Origin: Planctomycetaceae bacterium
Lineage (GTDB): Bacteria; Planctomycetota; Planctomycetia; Pirellulales; Pirellulaceae
Reading direction: 5' to 3'
DNA: 45,945 nt
NCBI GenBank assembly: GCA_002724245.1
Contig: PBOG01000255.1
Location: 1 to 45,945 of the forward strand
Positions 1-44,951 of this stretch are shown here, one piece after another. Numbering within the stretch: the first letter of the stretch is position 1; every line of letters begins with the position of its first letter. Made by a program: the position numbers and the translations under genes. The notes beneath the pieces are model-generated. The model was not told the DNA's origin. It did no database searches and was given only the letters and a program-made list of their open reading frames with translations.

Positions 1-768
1 CAGAAAACAGAACCGGCCACAGCCGCAGAAACAGAGAACGCCGACGAGGCCGGCGATTCGCTCCTCGACATGATTCTCGACAGCGGGATCACAGGCGTCG
101 CTTTCATGGGAATCTTAGGATTATTCTCGGTGGTGGCCGGCACCGTAGCAGTGGAACGCGCCGTCAATATGCGCCGTGAACAACTGATGCCCATCGCCTG
201 TGTTGAAGAACTGGAGAAGGTCGCACATGGATCAGCCCCGCGATACAGTGCGCTGGCTGACAGTTGTGACAACACACCTGCGCCGCTGGCGGTCATTGTC
301 CAATCCGGCCTGGCGCGACAGGGACAACCGTTTGCCGAAGTCGAAAAGTCGATGGAAGATGCCGCGTCGCGTGAAATGGCAGATTTGCGCGCCAGAATTC
401 GGCCTTTGAACACGGTCGGCAGCATTGCGCCATTGGTCGGGTTACTGGGAACCGTCGTTGGCATGATCATCGCGTTCCACACCGCCAGTCAATCAGGTCT
501 GGGTAAGGCCGAGCTGTTGGCAAAGGGTATCTACATGGCTCTCTTGACGACCGCAGGAGGCCTGTCTGTGGCCATCCCGTCTCTCCTGTTGGGATCGTTT
601 TTTAGCGGCCGTGTGGAGAGATATTTTCGTGACATGGACAAGTTACTGATACCACTCGTACCGCACCTGGTAAAGCGAACCCAGCCGGCCCAGGAACCGC
701 CCCAGCCTCCGAAAAGCACGCCGACCTCGACCAACCCCCTGATGTCCAACGCGATCAGGGCATCCTGA
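1..768 (+). CDS. MotA/TolQ/ExbB proton channel protein (5' end cut by window)
   Basis: The frame is open from base 1, so the ATG at 70 is probably internal and the true start lies upstream. The visible part has three hydrophobic segments: one soon after residue MILDSGITG, one in NTVGSIAPLVGLLGTVVGM, and one in LTTAGGLSVAIPSLLLG. The last two match the conserved core of the ExbB/TolQ/MotA family, whose helices form a proton-driven pentameric channel in the inner membrane. The Ala/Glu/Asp-rich stretch before position 70 looks like the end of an N-terminal periplasmic extension, common in planctomycete ExbB proteins. The C-terminus is Pro-rich. An ExbD-like gene follows after about 135 bp on the same strand, as expected for an energising pair. 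The family call is firm; which of ExbB or TolQ it resembles most cannot be decided. Confidence 0.9.
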   Translation, partial: QKTEPATAAETENADEAGDSLLDMILDSGITGVAFMGILGLFSVVAGTVAVERAVNMRREQLMPIACVEELEKVAHGSAPRYSALADSCDNTPAPLAVIVQSGLARQGQPFAEVEKSMEDAASREMADLRARIRPLNTVGSIAPLVGLLGTVVGMIIAFHTASQSGLGKAELLAKGIYMALLTTAGGLSVAIPSLLLGSFFSGRVERYFRDMDKLLIPLVPHLVKRTQPAQEPPQPPKSTPTSTNPLMSNAIRAS

Positions 769-903
769 ATCAGGGCCACACAAGGCGCAAACCATTTGTA
801 GGCAAACCAATCGGAGATTCGCTCGTTCCTCTCCTTGTGTTCACAGGATGATCCTCGACACGGCTACCTGGTTCGTCATACCACCTGCAAGATGATTGGA
901 AAT

Positions 904-1308
904 ATGAAACTACCACCGACTACGACCGATACCGAGGGACCCAACTTGACGCCCGTCATCGACGTGGTGTTTTTACTGCTGATCTTCTTCCTTGTCGCCA
1001 CCCAATTCAATCAGGAAGAACGTGAATTGGAAGTTGAGTTACCCGAAGTCGTACAAGCCCAGCCAGTGGCGATGACGCAAGGATTGATCATCAACATTAC
1101 CCAGGACGGGACCTACAAAGTCGTCCGTCGCGAATACAACGAAGACCAACTTTCCCTTGTCATTAACCAGGCAAAGAAAAACAACCCCCACCAAACCGCA
1201 TTGATACGTGGTGATGGCAACAGCGCATTGAAATACGCAGCCCGTGTCATGAGCCTCTGCAACCGGGCTGGCATGGACTATCGCATTGCCACCTTGGAGT
1301 CGCGTTAA
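904..1308 (+). CDS. ExbD/TolR-family biopolymer transport protein
   Basis: The protein (134 aa from the ATG at 904) has a short cytoplasmic N-terminus, one membrane helix and a periplasmic domain, the ExbD/TolR plan. The helix begins LTPVIDVVFLLLIFFLVATQ. Its Asp is the conserved proton-carrying residue of the family, and the LTP-I-DVVF motif is typical. It should sit in the pore of the ExbB-like channel just upstream and pass proton-motive force to a periplasm-spanning partner. I chose 904 because LPPTTTDTEGPNLTP is the usual length before the helix; an ATG at 892 and a TTG at 835 are in the same frame. The third gene of the operon starts about 90 bp downstream and is the natural candidate partner. 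Confidence 0.92.
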   Translation: MKLPPTTTDTEGPNLTPVIDVVFLLLIFFLVATQFNQEERELEVELPEVVQAQPVAMTQGLIINITQDGTYKVVRREYNEDQLSLVINQAKKNNPHQTALIRGDGNSALKYAARVMSLCNRAGMDYRIATLESR

Positions 1309-1398
1309 CATTGATTGGCCCGGCCCGCGGCCGATCCAACAATACAACACTATCTGTCCTGGAAAGCGTTGCGGCACGCACCGCAGCGATCAGAAGCA

Positions 1399-4300
1399 AT
1401 GCCAGACCCCAACATCCGGTGGCACCAACTCGCCACGCGCTGGTTCCACTCAACCAAAACCGTACTCCTCGTTGCCGCGGTAGCACTCGCGCTTCTGGCA
1501 CTTTGGGCTGCGCCGCGGCGCGTGCTGCGCGTCATTCCCATTGGTAAAGACATTCGCTGGGACGAGAACAACGCACCCCAAAGACGTCAAGTCGTGTGGC
1601 AACCCGCGGAGCCGCTGGAAGGGCTGCTCCAGGACGATCTGGCAAACGCCGACATCCTGTCACCGCGGCTTGCTGAGGGTGGTTCTTTATTACTCTGCAC
1701 CGTCCGCCACACCAACGGGCAAATGGACCTGTACAGTTCACGGTTTTCCGAAGGCCAGTGGCAGCCAGTCCAACCTCTGGATGCAATCAATTCACCTGCC
1801 CAGGACATCGGCGCTATCATCAGTCCAGATGGCCGCTGGCTCTGGTTCTACTCGAATCGCGCAGGTGGATTCGGTGGCTTCGATCTCTATGTATCCAAGC
1901 GCCAGTCCGGACAATGGCAACCGCCACAGAATCTCGGTGCCACGATCAACACCGCAGCCCATGAGTCGGAACCAGCGATTTCACCCGATGGAAACACCCT
2001 GTACTTTTCTTCGAATCGCACGGCGGCGATGCAGCGGGAGAGTACCGAACCCGGTAGTACGACCACGCAGCGTCCCTGGTCGGGTACTTTGCGCAGTGAA
2101 CTAGGCGCGTCGTATCGAGGTCTGTACCGGGCTACCCGGACAGCGCCCCAACAAACCTGGGAACACGTCGAACCGATCACCTCGCTGAATCGATCCGACA
2201 GCGATGAAGGTTCACCCTACCTGTCGCCCGACAATGGATTCTTGTACTTCTCCTCGAATCGCGCGCGATCTCCAGGCCAGACGCGTCACTTTGAACTCTA
2301 TCGGGCACGACAGACGTCGTCCGGTTTTCAAACGCCCGAGACATTAGGCACCTCGATCAATTCATTGAACGATGAGCTGGAACCAGCGCTCTCTCCCGAA
2401 GGATTTACGCTGGTCTTTTCCAGTGATCGCTCAGGGCGCAACCGTATTTATCGCAGTCGGGCAATCGAAGTTTTCACAGAGCCTGGCTGGGATACCGCCC
2501 ACCTCGGTATTCTGGCGAAGGTGTGGCTGCCAGCTCTGTTGCTCACACTGCTGGCCGCAGCATTGGTAGCAGTCTGGATGTGGCTGCGCGGCTGGTTCTG
2601 GGAAGCAGCGACCTCGATGCGGTTCTTTGGAGCCAGCCTCATCTTTCATGCGGTCGCGTTGTTCGTGCTGGCCTTCTGGTCTCTCCCGACAGTCGTCACT
2701 CTGATTGTCAGCAATCTGCAAGAATCCGAAGCCGCAGAACAACCATTCGCCGACAATCAACACCAATCGCATGAAGATGGCCAGCAGGCCTGGGAAAAAC
2801 TACACGATCTCAAAGCGGAACAAAAAACAATCGAGGTGACACGCAGCGAATCAACTCCACTCAACATGCCGCAACCGACTGACAATCTTGAGCCGACGAT
2901 TTCCATCGAGATGGCAAAACGCCTACCAACTGACCGGGTCCTCTACAGCCCACCTCCACAACCGGTTGATACACCCGAACCGGCCCCCTCGCCGGCCCGC
3001 GTAACGGCGCCTGCAAAAGCAACGGTCGAAGTGCGAGACGATATGGAGCTGATCGAACCCACCGAAACACCCGCAATCGCGCAAAACCAGGTGACCCCTG
3101 CTGATTTACCGCGGAGCACTCCCCCTTCCCGGGTACTCCCTGACCAGCCTACCGAGGTCGCCGAACTGACACCGATGCGCACGCTTGACACACCCGCCGC
3201 AGAATTACCGGACGCGCCAACGATTGTAGACGTCGAACAGGTACCACCCGCGAACCGGGATCGGTCGGAACTGGCTCGGCAGTTGATTGAACTCGTCGAG
3301 GACACCAGCGAGCCAGTGGTCCCGATCGATGACCGCAACGCGCAACGCCAGCCCACCAAACCAATCGATAGGCTCACCCGGACAGCGCCCAAACCGGCTG
3401 CAGCGCCCACCGTCCAGTCCTCTGCCGAATTACCGGTCCGCACGATGCGCCCCGCCACCACGGCTGCCACAGTCCCAACGGCGGGTGCCCGACCCCAACC
3501 CAGATCAATCCGTCTGCGTCGCGCGGGCGCCGTCGCACCGACCATTCCGGATCTGGAAGAATCCGCGCTCGCTGCCGATCTTCCTGATCCCGTCGCGGCA
3601 CCCACGGCACAAAACGCAACGGCCGTAAAAGTGGAATTAAATCGCAGCGTCGTCGTGCCGCCGCGCATCGAAGTCGTCACGCCGCGTATTATGGGAGGCC
3701 CCAGTCGCCGCAACCAGCGGATCTCGACTGGTCAAAATAGCGATGTGCGCAGAGAACTCCCTCCCACGTTCGGTCCGATTGTCAGTCAGTTGGAACGCCG
3801 CCATGCCAAAGCAACACAAGTCGTCTATGCCGCGGACAGTGTCGGTCTGCAAGAAATGTTTACACTCCGACAGGCAGATATCCGGCGCCAGCATATCAAG
3901 CTATTTGGTGGGACAGATGAATCTGAGGTCGCCGTCAACCAGGGTCTTGCCTGGCTGGCAGCGCATCAAAACAAAGACGGCAGCTGGAGCCTCGACACCT
4001 TTCACGCAAATTGCCAGGGCAAACATCCCAATTGCGGCGGCGCGGGCAAGGTCCGCTCAAACACAGCAGCCACCGGTTTAGCACTGCTGCCTTTCTTGGC
4101 CGCGGGCAACACCCATCAAGCGGGCGAGTATCAACAAAATATTTCCCGCGCGATCGGGTGGCTACAGAAACAACAAAAACCAAACGGTGATCTGCTCTCC
4201 GCGGGAGATAAGTCACATATCTACAGCCATTCGATTGCCTCCATCGCGGTGTGTGAGACCTTCGGCATGACACAAGATCCCGCACTCAAGCCACTGGCTG

Positions 4301-4917
4301 AAAAATCGCTGCAGTTCCTTATCAAGGCGCAGCACGGCCCGACAGGCGGATGGCGTTATAGTCCCAACCAGGCAGGTGATACCTCAGTCGTTGGCTGGGC
4401 CATGATGGCCCTCAAAAGTGGTGAAATGGCTGGGCTCACTATTCCACAAGCGACCCTCGACCTGGTCGCCAAATGGCTGTCGTCCGTAGAAGGTAACAAA
4501 CCCAACGGTGGGCACTTTGGTTATCAAAATGGTTCCGCAACTCCCGCCATGACGGCCGAAGGTCTACTCTGTCTCCAATTCATGGGAGTCGCACGCAATC
4601 AACTACGTATGCGATCGGGGGCGGACTACTTGCTACTGAATCTTCCGGACACGGACCAGCGCCGGACATCCTATTATTGGTACTACGGCACTCAAGTGAT
4701 GTATCACATGCAAGGGCGCTATTGGGAAGCCTGGAACAGCCGCCTGCGTGACCATTTGACAAAAACTCAAATCAGCGAGGGTCCATTGTCTGGCACCTGG
4801 AATCCGCGTGACAATTGGGAAGCCAGTGGTGGACGTATTTATGCAACGGCCATCAAGCTGCTGATGCTGGAAGTCTACTACCGTCATCTACCGCTCTACG
4901 AACAACTGGACGAATAA
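1399..4917 (+). CDS. PD40 propeller / membrane / TonB-like linker / prenyltransferase-type toroid fusion protein
   Basis: This 1172-aa protein has four parts. Residues about 21-38 form a membrane helix. Residues about 90-360 carry PD40 (WD40-like) propeller blades such as SPDGRWLWFYSNR, SPDGNTLYFSSNR and SPEGFTLVFSSDR. Two more helices follow at about 377-395 and 411-437. Next is a roughly 390-residue Pro/Ala/Thr/Glu-rich linker. From about 830 to the end lie repeats of the prenyltransferase/squalene-oxidase type (GLAWLAAHQNKDGSW, LQFLIKAQHGPTGGWRYSP) that fold as an alpha-alpha toroid. No DXDD-type cyclase acid motif is evident, so catalysis is doubtful. Propeller and toroid are predicted to lie outside the cytoplasmic membrane. 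The gene follows exbB and exbD, suggesting a force-transducing partner (inference). The ATG at 1399 is preferred; a TTG at 1315 would add 28 residues without signal character. Confidence 0.85.
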   Translation: MPDPNIRWHQLATRWFHSTKTVLLVAAVALALLALWAAPRRVLRVIPIGKDIRWDENNAPQRRQVVWQPAEPLEGLLQDDLANADILSPRLAEGGSLLLCTVRHTNGQMDLYSSRFSEGQWQPVQPLDAINSPAQDIGAIISPDGRWLWFYSNRAGGFGGFDLYVSKRQSGQWQPPQNLGATINTAAHESEPAISPDGNTLYFSSNRTAAMQRESTEPGSTTTQRPWSGTLRSELGASYRGLYRATRTAPQQTWEHVEPITSLNRSDSDEGSPYLSPDNGFLYFSSNRARSPGQTRHFELYRARQTSSGFQTPETLGTSINSLNDELEPALSPEGFTLVFSSDRSGRNRIYRSRAIEVFTEPGWDTAHLGILAKVWLPALLLTLLAAALVAVWMWLRGWFWEAATSMRFFGASLIFHAVALFVLAFWSLPTVVTLIVSNLQESEAAEQPFADNQHQSHEDGQQAWEKLHDLKAEQKTIEVTRSESTPLNMPQPTDNLEPTISIEMAKRLPTDRVLYSPPPQPVDTPEPAPSPARVTAPAKATVEVRDDMELIEPTETPAIAQNQVTPADLPRSTPPSRVLPDQPTEVAELTPMRTLDTPAAELPDAPTIVDVEQVPPANRDRSELARQLIELVEDTSEPVVPIDDRNAQRQPTKPIDRLTRTAPKPAAAPTVQSSAELPVRTMRPATTAATVPTAGARPQPRSIRLRRAGAVAPTIPDLEESALAADLPDPVAAPTAQNATAVKVELNRSVVVPPRIEVVTPRIMGGPSRRNQRISTGQNSDVRRELPPTFGPIVSQLERRHAKATQVVYAADSVGLQEMFTLRQADIRRQHIKLFGGTDESEVAVNQGLAWLAAHQNKDGSWSLDTFHANCQGKHPNCGGAGKVRSNTAATGLALLPFLAAGNTHQAGEYQQNISRAIGWLQKQQKPNGDLLSAGDKSHIYSHSIASIAVCETFGMTQDPALKPLAEKSLQFLIKAQHGPTGGWRYSPNQAGDTSVVGWAMMALKSGEMAGLTIPQATLDLVAKWLSSVEGNKPNGGHFGYQNGSATPAMTAEGLLCLQFMGVARNQLRMRSGADYLLLNLPDTDQRRTSYYWYYGTQVMYHMQGRYWEAWNSRLRDHLTKTQISEGPLSGTWNPRDNWEASGGRIYATAIKLLMLEVYYRHLPLYEQLDE

Positions 4918-8738: not shown

Positions 8739-8935
8739 TCAGCGGCTACATGCCCAGCGTTTCTCAAGCGGCCTGAGGCTGTAGCCTGGCACGGAAATCT
8801 GCGGGTCCGCCTGCCATTCGAGTGTCCCCCCAAGATATCGAGTGTGGCGCCCCGTCAACGCTCCGAGTTGTTGTCTCTGCGGGCAGCACGTATGATGAAT
8901 CTGGGGCCTATCTCGGTTTCATAGCGGGCAACGTC

Positions 8936-10801
8936 ATGGCCAAATTCAATCCCTACCACAAGTGGCTCAATCTGGACTCTCAGATTACCGCTCCCAACTA
9001 TTACCGTCTTCTGGGATTGGAAGACCTGGAAGAAGACCCCGAAGTCATTCAGGCAGCCGCAGCAGCGACGCTCGCGCGGGTTCAATCGTGTGATCCAGGA
9101 TCGCGTACAAAGCGTTGGTCACAACTCGTCGCCGAGGTCGAACAAGCTGGAAAATGTTTGACCGACGAATGGACAAAGGGCGACTATGACCGGCAACTCG
9201 ATCTGTCCGTGTTGGCGGCACCTCAACCGGTGACACCAGCTCCTAGTGTGGTAGAGAAAAACAAATCGCCCGTTGCCAAGAAACTGACCTCTCGATTTGA
9301 AATCGCACCTGAAACGGCAAACCTGGAAGCAAGTTTGCTCCCTCCGGGTATGGGTGGTGCCTCGATGGTCGCTCCGGAAAAACCCCAGCCCACCCCTGAG
9401 CCACCGTCAGATACGATTCAAGATGCCGTAGCGAATACCGGGGACAACGCTCCACTTGTATTCCGCTCAGTACCCGAGAACTCAGTCATCGATAAAGGCG
9501 TCGACGAAGCCGTGGGATTTCGAGGCGGCGATCTGGATGCCCAGGCACCAGACGACAAACCCGTTTCAGATCCAGTTCGTGCTCCAGTTACTTTCAATGA
9601 AATTTCTGCGCCACAATCGAGACCTGATGGCCCAGACGTCGGTGATGTAATCGCCGATCCCGTGCTACCCGACACAAATCCGATGTCGGCCTACCAGGCG
9701 CCCGACCAGGTCATTCAGGCTGCCCCACAGGAAGCTTCTGGAGAACTGTCTACTGGCGATATTCCGTTAGCTACCACACTTTCCTCGCACGAACTGCAAG
9801 ACGTACCGATCGCGCAACCAACCGCTGGCGCCGACGTGCCACGGGTCCCCGTCGAAGTGACATCCAGTACGCCACCACCACCGGCGCGAAAAAGAGCTTC
9901 GCAGCAGCGGGGCCGGCAACTAGGAATCGCCGCCGGACTAGCGGTTTGCATCGGTATTCTGGCATTCGCCTGGCTCAATACTGAAAGCCCGAAATCAGGT
10001 CCAGTTGCCCGACGTTCCCCGGCAGACGGAAGCCGCACGCCGGCTACGGACACCGAGTCCGATCCCCAGCCGTCCGATCCTCAGCCGTCCGATCCCCAGT
10101 CGTCCGATCCCCAGTCGTCCGATCCTCAGTCGTCCGATCCTCAGTCGTCCGATCCTCAGTCGTCCGATCCTCAGCCGTCCGATCCCCAGCCGTCCGATCC
10201 CCAGCCGTCCGATCCCCAGCCGTCCGACAAGCAACAGTTGGCCAACCTGGGTCAAGCCCTAGGACTGGCCCGCGCTGCACTGAGCAAGGGAGGTGTCAAG
10301 AGTTCGGAACGGGCAGCTGCCAGAAAACACCTGAAACAGGCAGCCGCGCTGGCTCAGCTACCACAACACAAAGACCTGGTACGCCGACTTGGCTTGTTAG
10401 CCAACTATGTTGATCAGTTTTGGGCAACACTCGACCGCGTGGTCCGAGGATTCCAGGGCGGTGAAGAACTCCAGTACAAAGGCTCAATCATACTCGTCCG
10501 GGAAAAGCCCCAAGACGAACTCAAGATCCGTTACAAGGGCCTTAATCTCAGCCACCGCCTCAACCAACTTCCACCAGGCATCGTAATGGCCATCGCCAAC
10601 CACGGATTTGACGAGACTCAACCCGTGAACCTGGTCCTCAAAGGTGCTTTTCTCGTCGTCCATCCGACAGCGAGCGAATCGATGATTGCAGATGCGCGAC
10701 GGTGGTGGGAAGAGGCGGCCAACAATGACGTGGAGATCGGAGATCTCGCCAAGGTCATTGACGATGACTATCTTCTGAAATTACCTGCCACCACCGAGTA
10801 A
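8936..10801 (+). CDS. J-domain-like membrane protein with SDPQ(P/S) tandem repeats
   Basis: The protein (621 aa from the ATG at 8936) begins MAKFNPYHKWLNLD and then shows a J-domain-like region (NYYRLLGLEDLEEDPEVIQ ... KGDYDRQLDL, about residues 20-85). No HPD tripeptide lies between the helices, so Hsp70 stimulation is unlikely. A long low-complexity acidic linker follows, then one membrane helix near residues 328-347 (GIAAGLAVCIGILAFAWL), then eleven SDPQ(P/S) repeats at about 375-429, then a C-terminal globular domain of about 190 residues that I do not recognise. The topology is probably N-terminus inside, repeats and C-domain outside. A GTG at 8822 would add 38 residues of poor character. 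I know similar J-like N-termini from planctomycete proteins but no function. Confidence 0.8.
   Translation: MAKFNPYHKWLNLDSQITAPNYYRLLGLEDLEEDPEVIQAAAAATLARVQSCDPGSRTKRWSQLVAEVEQAGKCLTDEWTKGDYDRQLDLSVLAAPQPVTPAPSVVEKNKSPVAKKLTSRFEIAPETANLEASLLPPGMGGASMVAPEKPQPTPEPPSDTIQDAVANTGDNAPLVFRSVPENSVIDKGVDEAVGFRGGDLDAQAPDDKPVSDPVRAPVTFNEISAPQSRPDGPDVGDVIADPVLPDTNPMSAYQAPDQVIQAAPQEASGELSTGDIPLATTLSSHELQDVPIAQPTAGADVPRVPVEVTSSTPPPPARKRASQQRGRQLGIAAGLAVCIGILAFAWLNTESPKSGPVARRSPADGSRTPATDTESDPQPSDPQPSDPQSSDPQSSDPQSSDPQSSDPQSSDPQPSDPQPSDPQPSDPQPSDKQQLANLGQALGLARAALSKGGVKSSERAAARKHLKQAAALAQLPQHKDLVRRLGLLANYVDQFWATLDRVVRGFQGGEELQYKGSIILVREKPQDELKIRYKGLNLSHRLNQLPPGIVMAIANHGFDETQPVNLVLKGAFLVVHPTASESMIADARRWWEEAANNDVEIGDLAKVIDDDYLLKLPATTE
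10058..10222 (+). repeat. 11-copy 15-bp in-frame tandem repeat
   Basis: Eleven adjoining 15-bp units of the form tccgatccYcagYcg encode SDPQP or SDPQS. They differ only at two wobble-like pyrimidine positions (tccgatccccagccg, tccgatcctcagtcg and similar). Units with the same variant are adjacent, which points to expansion by slippage. A twelfth, degenerate unit (SDKQQ) follows. The reading frame is kept by any change in copy number because the unit is a multiple of three. Confidence 0.97.
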
Positions 10802-43431: not shown

Positions 43432-44178
43432 CACCTGCTCGATGGCGAGAATCACGACCGGTTCTGTCGGAATCCGGGCGCCACCTTCGACACCCGTCTG
43501 TGGCTTGGCTGGTAACGCTGCAATCTTGTCGGCAATCTCAAGCCCTTCGATAACTTTGCCAAACACGCAGTAACCATTCAATCTGCCATCCTCAGTCTGC
43601 GCGTAATCGAGGTGATCATTACTCGCCAGGTTGATGAAAAACTCCGATGTAGCACTGTGTTCATAATCCGCAAGACGGGCCATCGCCAGTGTGCCACGAC
43701 GATTCGACAAACCGTTGTTCGCTTCATTAAGAATGCCTCGCTCGGCAATCTCGGCACTGGTCAATTTCGGCTTCATGCCAGAGAGGTACGCACCTCCCAT
43801 GATCATGCTCTGAGGTTCTACGTGATGGATGATCGTATTGGCATACCAACCACGCTCGACATAGTTGACAAGAAAATTCTCTGTGGTTCGCGGCGCTTTT
43901 TCACGGTCAAGTCGAACGCGAATGTTCCCCAGAGAGGTACGAATCACAATTTCCGGATGAAGATTGAGGCTGGGTCGAGTGGGAGATTCAGTCGTTGCTT
44001 CTTCTGCTTTGAGATGCACCGGAGCGACAACGCCACTGCTAGCTGCTTCTGTAACCTCTGCTGGCGAGGTAGCTCGCAAGTTCGCTACGGGTGGGGAAAC
44101 CGATCCGGACCCATCTCCACACCCGCTGCAGAGAACAACCAGGCAACCCAGCATGGCGACGAATAGACCGCTGCGCAT
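43420..44178 (-). CDS. Lipoprotein cyclophilin-type peptidyl-prolyl isomerase
   Basis: The 252-aa protein has a lipoprotein signal (LVVLCSGC, Cys at about 20), an exported linker, and a cyclophilin domain from about residue 78: IVIRTSLGNIRVRLDREKAPRTTENFL, GTLAMARLADYEHSATSEFFINL and NGYCVFGKVIEGLEIADKIA. Cyclophilins carry a catalytic Arg in FHR; here the strand reads NTIIHHVEPQSMIMGG, with His in place of Arg and Ile in place of Phe. SATSEFFIN keeps Phe-Phe but has Glu for Gln. Isomerase activity may be low, so a chaperone or scaffold role is possible. Confidence 0.87.
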   Translation of the reverse strand: MRSGLFVAMLGCLVVLCSGCGDGSGSVSPPVANLRATSPAEVTEAASSGVVAPVHLKAEEATTESPTRPSLNLHPEIVIRTSLGNIRVRLDREKAPRTTENFLVNYVERGWYANTIIHHVEPQSMIMGGAYLSGMKPKLTSAEIAERGILNEANNGLSNRRGTLAMARLADYEHSATSEFFINLASNDHLDYAQTEDGRLNGYCVFGKVIEGLEIADKIAALPAKPQTGVEGGARIPTEPVVILAIEQVGPR

Positions 44179-44534
44179 TCCCTTGCCTCCTTGCCGAGGA
44201 CTGCTCTAACTCAGCCGCAACCACCCCGATCCCTGGAGGGCCCGACGGCCTGAACTTCTGTGCGCGGTCATCATGAGAATTTAGCCCAAACGACACAACC
44301 CCTGTTTTTCGGCAGCGCCATCCGGGGATCTCCGGTTTCTTCTATTCTGCCTGACCTGCCACGCTGCCCCAGGCGCAGGACCCTGGCAGCCCAGGTCATT
44401 CCGATTGGCTGACACTTTGCCTCTCAGTGCAGGGTCGCAGCGGCGCAAAAAAAACGAACCGCCTGGCTGGGCGGTTCGTCGGATCTTTCTGCTAGTGGCT
44501 GGAAAACGCACCCTTTGTGGTTTTCCCGCCAGGG
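44179..44534. other. Intergenic stretch between two reverse-strand genes
   Basis: About 355 bp holds no credible gene. It contains the intrinsic terminator of the Lys-rich CXXCH gene at 44447-44479 and the upstream region of the cyclophilin gene. Confidence 0.5.
44447..44479 (-). terminator. Intrinsic terminator of the CXXCH protein gene
   Basis: On the reverse strand a perfect 10-bp stem (acgaaccgcc / ggcggttcgt, 6-base loop) is followed at once by eight T residues. It lies about 56 bp past the stop at 44535. This is the clearest factor-independent terminator of the window. Confidence 0.85.
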
Positions 44535-44951
44535 TTACTTCTTGACAACCGATGGCAATTTGCCGGCCTTCAGAAGTTCACCAAAAGAGGGCAGTTTCTT
44601 TTTCTTGTCAGCGCCCATCTTCTCGACCTTGGTCAAGGCATCGTTGATTTTCTTGGTGTTCTTCTTGTCCTTCTTGGTGAGCAGCTTGCCCAGCGCTTTG
44701 CCGTAATCATTACGGTTCTTCTTGCTGATTTTCCCATCGATCTTGCGCGGATCATGGCAGACGTTGCACTTCTTGACTTTGGTAACGGCCGCGGCAAGTT
44801 TCTTTTGCACGTCAGTCTTTTTGTCACCCACATACTTCTTTTGCCAGGCCTTGGAATATTCACTGCGGCCGTCTACCCGTCCGGTCACACAAACAGTCAA
44901 AAAACCGAAGACCATCAATGCACTCAACGCACTTACGTACAATCGTTTCAT
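44535..44951 (-). CDS. Exported Lys-rich CXXCH (c-type heme) protein
   Basis: The 138-aa protein has a signal peptide (MKRLYVSALSALMVFGFLTV) and a mature part with very many Lys residues. One c-type heme motif CNVCH occupies residues 62-66, within VKKCNVCHDPRK. Around it is helical, charged sequence (DYGKALGKLLTKKDKKNTKK), so it is not a classical cytochrome c fold. GGAGAAA lies just before the ATG. A strong terminator follows the gene. The upstream region holds a near-copy of its own initiation region at 45085-45115. It may be a small periplasmic electron carrier or heme-binding protein. Confidence 0.82.
   Translation of the reverse strand: MKRLYVSALSALMVFGFLTVCVTGRVDGRSEYSKAWQKKYVGDKKTDVQKKLAAAVTKVKKCNVCHDPRKIDGKISKKNRNDYGKALGKLLTKKDKKNTKKINDALTKVEKMGADKKKKLPSFGELLKAGKLPSVVKK

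Follow-up and report, generated by a model that had tools for sequence, protein, structure and literature searches.

The motor-binding helix of TonB and TolA carries the SHLS motif, Ser-X3-His-X6-Leu-X3-Ser, as it is defined in the available part of PMC12215075. In the accessible sections of PMC10907165 the D-box of TonB is described as a strand just past the membrane anchor which is captured by ExbD and shows an alternating hydrophobic/hydrophilic pattern with flanking prolines. Transducers with a C-terminal von Willebrand factor A (vWA) domain, Planctomycetes included, are described in the excerpted text of PMC12204202 as having an SHLS helix, a disordered linker and adjoining motor and TPR genes; the words 'toroid', 'squalene' and 'prenyl' do not occur in the main text of that paper. 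Toroid-ended transducers were found in no published description among the open papers searched, a set without preprints and most subscription papers.

The window, i.e. the whole stretch of DNA analysed (45,945 nucleotides), is a complete contig (G000:C224), and its first base lies already inside the exbB/tolQ-like gene (Table 1). The preliminary description, made from the DNA letters, had listed an exbB-like gene, an exbD-like gene and, on the same strand, a protein combining PD40 blades, three membrane helices, a Pro-rich stretch and a toroid, and this inventory was confirmed by a Pfam scan and AlphaFold models. The exbD-like reading frame is open from TTG 835 to 1308 (+), and the orthologues begin at the equivalent of ATG 904, giving a protein of 134 aa. 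The Pfam scan also placed SQHop_cyclase_C in the 1172-aa protein (E 7.9e-9). Judging by the gene order, the SHLS motif, the domains and predicted folds, the linkage kept in relatives and the grouping of the motors, the operon quite probably encodes a trans-envelope transducer driven by the proton-motive force, TonB/TolA-like in its working and ending in a toroid. The earlier idea of a TonB-like transducer, driven by ExbB/ExbD and with a toroid at the end of its linker, thus gained strength from the kept linkage and the exact SHLS match. Elsewhere in the window (8822-10801, +) lies a gene for a protein of 659 aa that contains a series of SDPQ repeats and gave no Pfam match at E 0.1; this protein is also encoded near the operon in loci L122 and L123.

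Table 1. Features of the operon at the start of the window (nucleotide positions; residues refer to the transducer)
Feature	Position	Strand	Details
exbB/tolQ-like proton channel gene	1..768	+	5' end missing (contig start); MotA_ExbB E 6.3e-29
exbD/tolR-like gene	904..1308	+	ExbD E 1.1e-25
Transducer gene	1399..4917	+	1172 aa from ATG; helix 1, propeller, helix 2, helix 3, linker, toroid
PD40/TolB-like beta-propeller	1651..2493	+	Residues ~85-365; PD40 E 4.5e-30
SHLS motor-binding motif in helix 3	2635..2682	+	Residues 413-428, SLIFHAVALFVLAFWS; exact Ser-X3-His-X6-Leu-X3-Ser
Conserved membrane-proximal periplasmic segment	2719..2958	+	Residues 441-520; conservation mean
Candidate D-box strand ISIEMAK	2899..2919	+	Residues 501-507; pattern scan of linker
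Pro-rich linker	2734..3873	+	Residues 446-825; 380 residues, 53 Pro
C-terminal alpha/alpha toroid	3874..4914	+	Residues 826-1172; AlphaFold and fold match

Helix 3 of the window's protein matches the SHLS motif exactly, with S413, H417, L424 and S428. The conservation of these residues was followed in 26 non-redundant propeller-toroid proteins, i.e. the window's own, those of 24 loci and that of L058. The propeller-type orthologues were chosen by similarity to the window's protein, duplicates among L042-L121 (e.g. L053, the same as L122) were taken out, and L131 and L140, in which the profile detected no propeller, stayed outside the set. Position 417 was occupied by His in 23 proteins and by Asn in 3, and position 413 by Ser in 20, Ala in 5 and Gly in 1; both Ser and His were kept in 18/26 and the full SHLS motif in 6/26. 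The canonical TonB of the same genome, encoded next to another exbB-exbD pair, has S-x3-H too (SLGFH in its helix).

The wider set comprised 84 toroid proteins from 60 relatives, taken from the top matches listed and not by a random draw. A helix was predicted before the toroid in 80 of these 84 listed proteins, and S-x3-H was present in the last helix of 59 of the 80, whereas 1000 shuffles gave 5.2 on average and never more than 13. The same pattern was met in 15/464 helix-like segments of other ORFs from these loci, among them spurious ORFs, and in 0/122 ExbB/ExbD segments. The full SHLS motif was found in 6/80 of the listed proteins against a shuffle mean of 0.05; the toroid sequences share descent, so these counts are not independent events. 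Among the matches listed, S-x3-H was rarer in the toroid proteins encoded next to exbB and exbD (11/21) than in those with neither (47/57 with a helix), because several of the motor-linked forms have Ala or Cys in place of Ser, or Asn or another residue in place of His.

Asn replaces the motif His in the propeller proteins of L136, L137 and L138 and in the long-linker proteins of L045, L104 and L115, the remaining architecture being kept. The ExbB Ser was unchanged in L136, L137, L104 and L115 despite Asn in the transducer, and no co-variation of this Ser with the His-to-Asn exchange was found, the Ser being present in all 22 propeller-type rows. It was also kept in other ExbB types. The ExbB Trp, a contact of the TonB Ser/His in E. 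coli, was not kept in the ExbB alignment.

The segment following the membrane helices was better conserved than the linker stretch beyond it: mean conservation in the 26 proteins was 0.50-0.60 at residues 441-520 and 0.21-0.35 at 521-760, these values being alignment-dependent. From residue 499 the window's protein reads PTISIEMAKRLP, the likeness of which to a D-box was first spotted by eye. When all 379 linker positions were scanned, with residue classes defined by the authors and the pattern spotted beforehand, the D-box pattern was present at residue 501 in 12/26 proteins and at the next best positions in 3/26. The AlphaFold model has no strand at residues 501-507, a region of low confidence, and the D-box is therefore given as a candidate only.

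A survey of the gene order in relatives had been set beforehand as one refuting check, and the linkage proved to be kept: exbB and exbD were located directly upstream of the transducer gene, on the same strand, at 22 of the 24 assessable propeller loci (window included). The assessable loci were the 26 without L143, cut inside the gene, and L138, in which an exbD fragment was detected by tblastn directly upstream at the contig end, with exbB beyond the end. For exbD alone, the count of propeller loci with the gene directly upstream was 23/25. In L129 both motor genes are found further upstream, about 4.8 kb away on the transducer's contig and strand and with other genes in between, and the propeller-toroid gene of L058 has no exbB or exbD within 15 kb. 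Given 12 ExbD matches in the 7.8 Mb genome, chance adjacency at the observed rate would, by a rough estimate, be negligible.

Clustering of the neighbours revealed a fourth recurrent gene, encoding a TPR_6 protein about 1080 residues long, whose hydrophobic N-terminus looks signal-like by eye. It was found directly upstream of exbB at 20/20 propeller, 18/21 long-linker and 6/8 short loci that could be assessed; nine of the L042-L121 loci repeating L122-L201 loci were left out of this count and of the ExbB tree. The kept linkage of exbB/exbD together with that of the TPR gene ruled out chance neighbours. In the window's own genome the TPR orthologue (88% identity to that of L122) ends 76 bases short of the end of contig C197, and when both are aligned on L122 the C197 end and the window start lie 88 bases apart inside one operon. 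Of the three-gene operon first proposed, the order exbB-exbD-transducer stood and the extent had to be revised, since the TPR gene precedes exbB, in the own genome on another contig. Just upstream of this TPR gene C197 carries a short toroid gene (43463-44611). Short toroid proteins of 382-417 aa with neither S-x3-H nor linker are encoded at five places in the genome (L047-L051, on C197, C182, C114, C14 and C95, respectively).

The ExbB motors group by transducer architecture. In a quick tree of 68 sequences one starred group comprised all 22 propeller-type motors and 2 of the short type, and another comprised all 30 long-linker motors, 3 of the short type and one motor of the own genome; the short-type ExbB were scattered across the tree. 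That own-genome motor belongs to a TPR-exbB-exbD set on C139 with no adjoining toroid gene, while a long-linker toroid gene on C54 has no adjoining motor genes. A motor without a toroid, a toroid without a motor and the place of this ExbB among the long-linker motors indicate that the two are probably partners. The gene after exbD on C139 (L206, 4964-6388, -) encodes a protein of 474 aa which by eye resembles signal peptidase I with an insert. Four further ExbB genes of the own genome (L203, L204, L205 and L207) are each followed by two ExbD genes, an arrangement resembling the paired tolR beside the vWA transducers in the excerpted text of PMC12204202.

In the AlphaFold model of the N-terminal part (534 aa, mean pLDDT 74.6) helices were placed at residues 19-37, 367-403 and 407-426/429-447, and the propeller was modelled with high confidence; pLDDT was low at 442-499 and 512-534, in the modelled part of the linker. 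TolB filled the first 16 Foldseek rows (E 8e-13 to 1e-9), with TM-scores of 0.31-0.34 by query and 0.39-0.55 by target. The propeller had initially been put on the other side of the membrane from the linker. This had to be reversed: it is located between helices 1 and 2 and, provided that the N-terminus lies in the cytoplasm, should by topology share the periplasmic side with the linker. TolB docks envelope proteins, and by analogy the propeller may be a docking site for such proteins as well.

These features raise the possibility of a divergent Tol-Pal system, in which the motor would be TolQ/TolR, the transducer TolA with the TolB propeller fused to it and the TPR protein CpoB, and which would maintain the outer membrane while the cell divides. 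The motor proteins speak for this, the channel scoring better in NCBIfam as tolQ (2.9e-20) than as exbB (1.9e-14) and the rotor better as tolR (1.1e-14) than as ExbD_1 (1e-8), all four under the curated cut-offs. TolB is the best fold match of the propeller, TPR_6 is one family used for CpoB in the available text of PMC12204202, and TolB_N (PF04052) was matched in 0/60 genomes, with matches in 3/14 controls. However, the C-terminal domain is a toroid, and no Pal/OmpA gene was recognised among the conserved operon neighbours as far as these were scanned, with OmpA-domain proteins encoded elsewhere in 59/60 genomes. The TPR gene also stands beside vWA transducers according to the same excerpts. 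Moreover, the propeller form was detected in just 9 of the 60 relatives (own genome included), which excludes it as the general Tol system. A Tol-Pal identity is for these reasons unlikely. Among the same 60 genomes TonB_C was matched in 34, the TonB-dependent plug in 40 and ExbD in 60; PF13103 gave no places beyond those of TonB_C, and with matches in 0/14 controls it says nothing on TolA elsewhere in the genome.

The C-terminal domain was modelled as all-helical (residues 826-1172; pLDDT 93, pTM 0.92). Among the re-examined Foldseek matches its best fold match was squalene-hopene cyclase (Z 26.3 over 294 residues, rmsd 3.7); drimenyl diphosphate synthases/cyclases and other cyclases came next, and then sugar epimerases and GH76 mannanases. 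At the level of sequence profiles the likeness to class II terpene cyclases had an E of 5e-19. The Pfam scan detected neither TonB_C nor a C-terminal vWA domain, the latter being absent from the toroid model too, and the C-terminus is the all-helical toroid with no TonB/TolA-type domain. Lacking the TonB/TolA C-terminal domain, the transducer was filed as neither TonB nor TolA.

These folds, together with the many invariant aromatic and polar residues in the toroid alignment, could also suit a membrane-tethered enzyme, terpene cyclase-like or glycan-active, with ExbB and ExbD as neighbours and no mechanical coupling. The DXDD catalytic motif is defining for class II terpene cyclases. It was present in 0/55 toroid rows, and because of this absence from all 55 the enzyme-only reading is rated as very unlikely; it also leaves the SHLS motif, the linker and the kept linkage unexplained. 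Invariant aromatic and polar residues without DXDD favour binding over terpene cyclisation. The toroid could conceivably catalyse a reaction on some other substrate alongside the coupling.

The toroid profile was matched in 177 of 199 Planctomycetota genomes (E up to 1e-30), and P0001 matches were found in all 60 relatives. Within this phylum-wide toroid family the propeller is the addition of a single subfamily, detected in records named Pirellulales, Fuerstiella, Rubripirellula, Blastopirellula and Gemmatales. The genomes are mostly metagenome bins, and the record names Kuenenia, Nealsonbacteria and Sumerlaeia may be mislabelled. Among the matches listed the commonest form has a single helix with PxW-x2-S-x3-H, a linker of about 110 residues and no adjoining motor genes (e.g. 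L042, L043, L063, L074, L084 and L092); the N-terminal part of L042 is Cys-rich and by eye zinc-ribbon-like. At the other extreme stand the long-linker proteins L077 (2330 aa), L090, L109, L115, L045 and L101, in which about 1070 to 1820 residues separate the last helix from the toroid.

The idea that S-x3-H and the linkage are inherited leftovers, the mostly unlinked toroid proteins being no longer coupled to ExbB/ExbD, is scarcely credible: it can point to the 61 of 84 toroid genes, among the matches listed, with neither exbB nor exbD directly upstream and to Asn in place of His in the three propeller forms, but S-x3-H is kept in most of the unlinked proteins with a helix and the unlinked C54 toroid has the C139 set, with its ExbB grouping with long-linker motors.

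The proton-driven, toroid-tipped transducer preferred here would work as follows. From an operon ordered as TPR protein, ExbB/TolQ-like channel, ExbD/TolR-like rotor and transducer, helix 3 would attach laterally to the ExbB pentamer via S413 and H417, like TonB and TolA, and ExbD would capture the near-membrane strand, for which residues 501-507 are the candidate. Proton flow through ExbB/ExbD would move or tension the transducer arm. The linker, whose Pro-rich, periplasm-spanning character is a trait of TonB and TolA transducers, would cross the periplasm and transmit the force; at its end, near the outer membrane, the toroid would grip some partner or ligand or exert a pull on it. A further docking module would be provided by the TolB-like propeller, which helices 1 and 2 would hold in the periplasm.

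In Gemmata obscuriglobus dextran was taken up by 23% of 1,065 cells and by none of 816 cells treated with the uncoupler CCCP, and the route of such macromolecules across the planctomycete outer membrane is presented as not settled in the available text of PMC5394234. Macromolecule uptake as the role of the arm is a suggestion drawn from that text by analogy, and no result of the present analysis. The R. baltica paper, in its accessible part, reports just the induction of one exbB and one exbD gene at high salinity. A broader proposal is that toroid-tipped transducers, with their dedicated TPR-channel-rotor sets, form a main class of force arms in Planctomycetota, a third one beside TonB and TolA, and power the uptake of whole macromolecules, or other work at the outer envelope, over the enlarged periplasm. 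We regard this as rather doubtful; if true, the wide planctomycete periplasm would be matched by linkers that reach about 1800 residues. With related arms in most of the planctomycete genomes examined, their envelope role is now open to testing, since the apparently proton-driven arms of the phylum offer named genes, a single histidine and a defined operon for this purpose. The occurrence of TonB/TolA, vWA and toroid end domains on one type of motor-docking helix suggests that the arms are modular.

The described systems each share a part of this design. Squalene-hopene and other class II terpene cyclases have the alpha/alpha toroid fold in common with the window's protein, which differs from them in being a single toroid on a membrane-anchored linker, with DXDD in none of the 55 toroid rows. 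Tol-Pal resembles the locus in the TolQ/TolR-like motor, the TolB-like propeller domain and the TPR_6 protein, whereas here the propeller is fused into a membrane-anchored transducer, TolB_N was matched in none of the 60 genomes and there is no TolA C-terminal domain. With TonB-ExbB-ExbD and TolA-TolQ-TolR the locus shares the motor genes beside the transducer gene, the SHLS helix, the Pro-rich linker, a C-terminal globular domain and, as a candidate, the D-box; unlike TonB and TolA, the window's protein has a toroid for the C-terminal domain, and two extra helices and the TolB-like propeller before the SHLS helix. The closest kin are the vWA transducers of PMC12204202: as far as the excerpted text describes them, they are alike in the SHLS helix, the disordered linker, the motor and TPR genes and the foreign C-terminal domain, and they differ from the protein of the window, another end-domain variant, in carrying vWA and not a toroid, in having a pair of exbD/tolR-like genes where this operon has one, and in the propeller added in one toroid subfamily.
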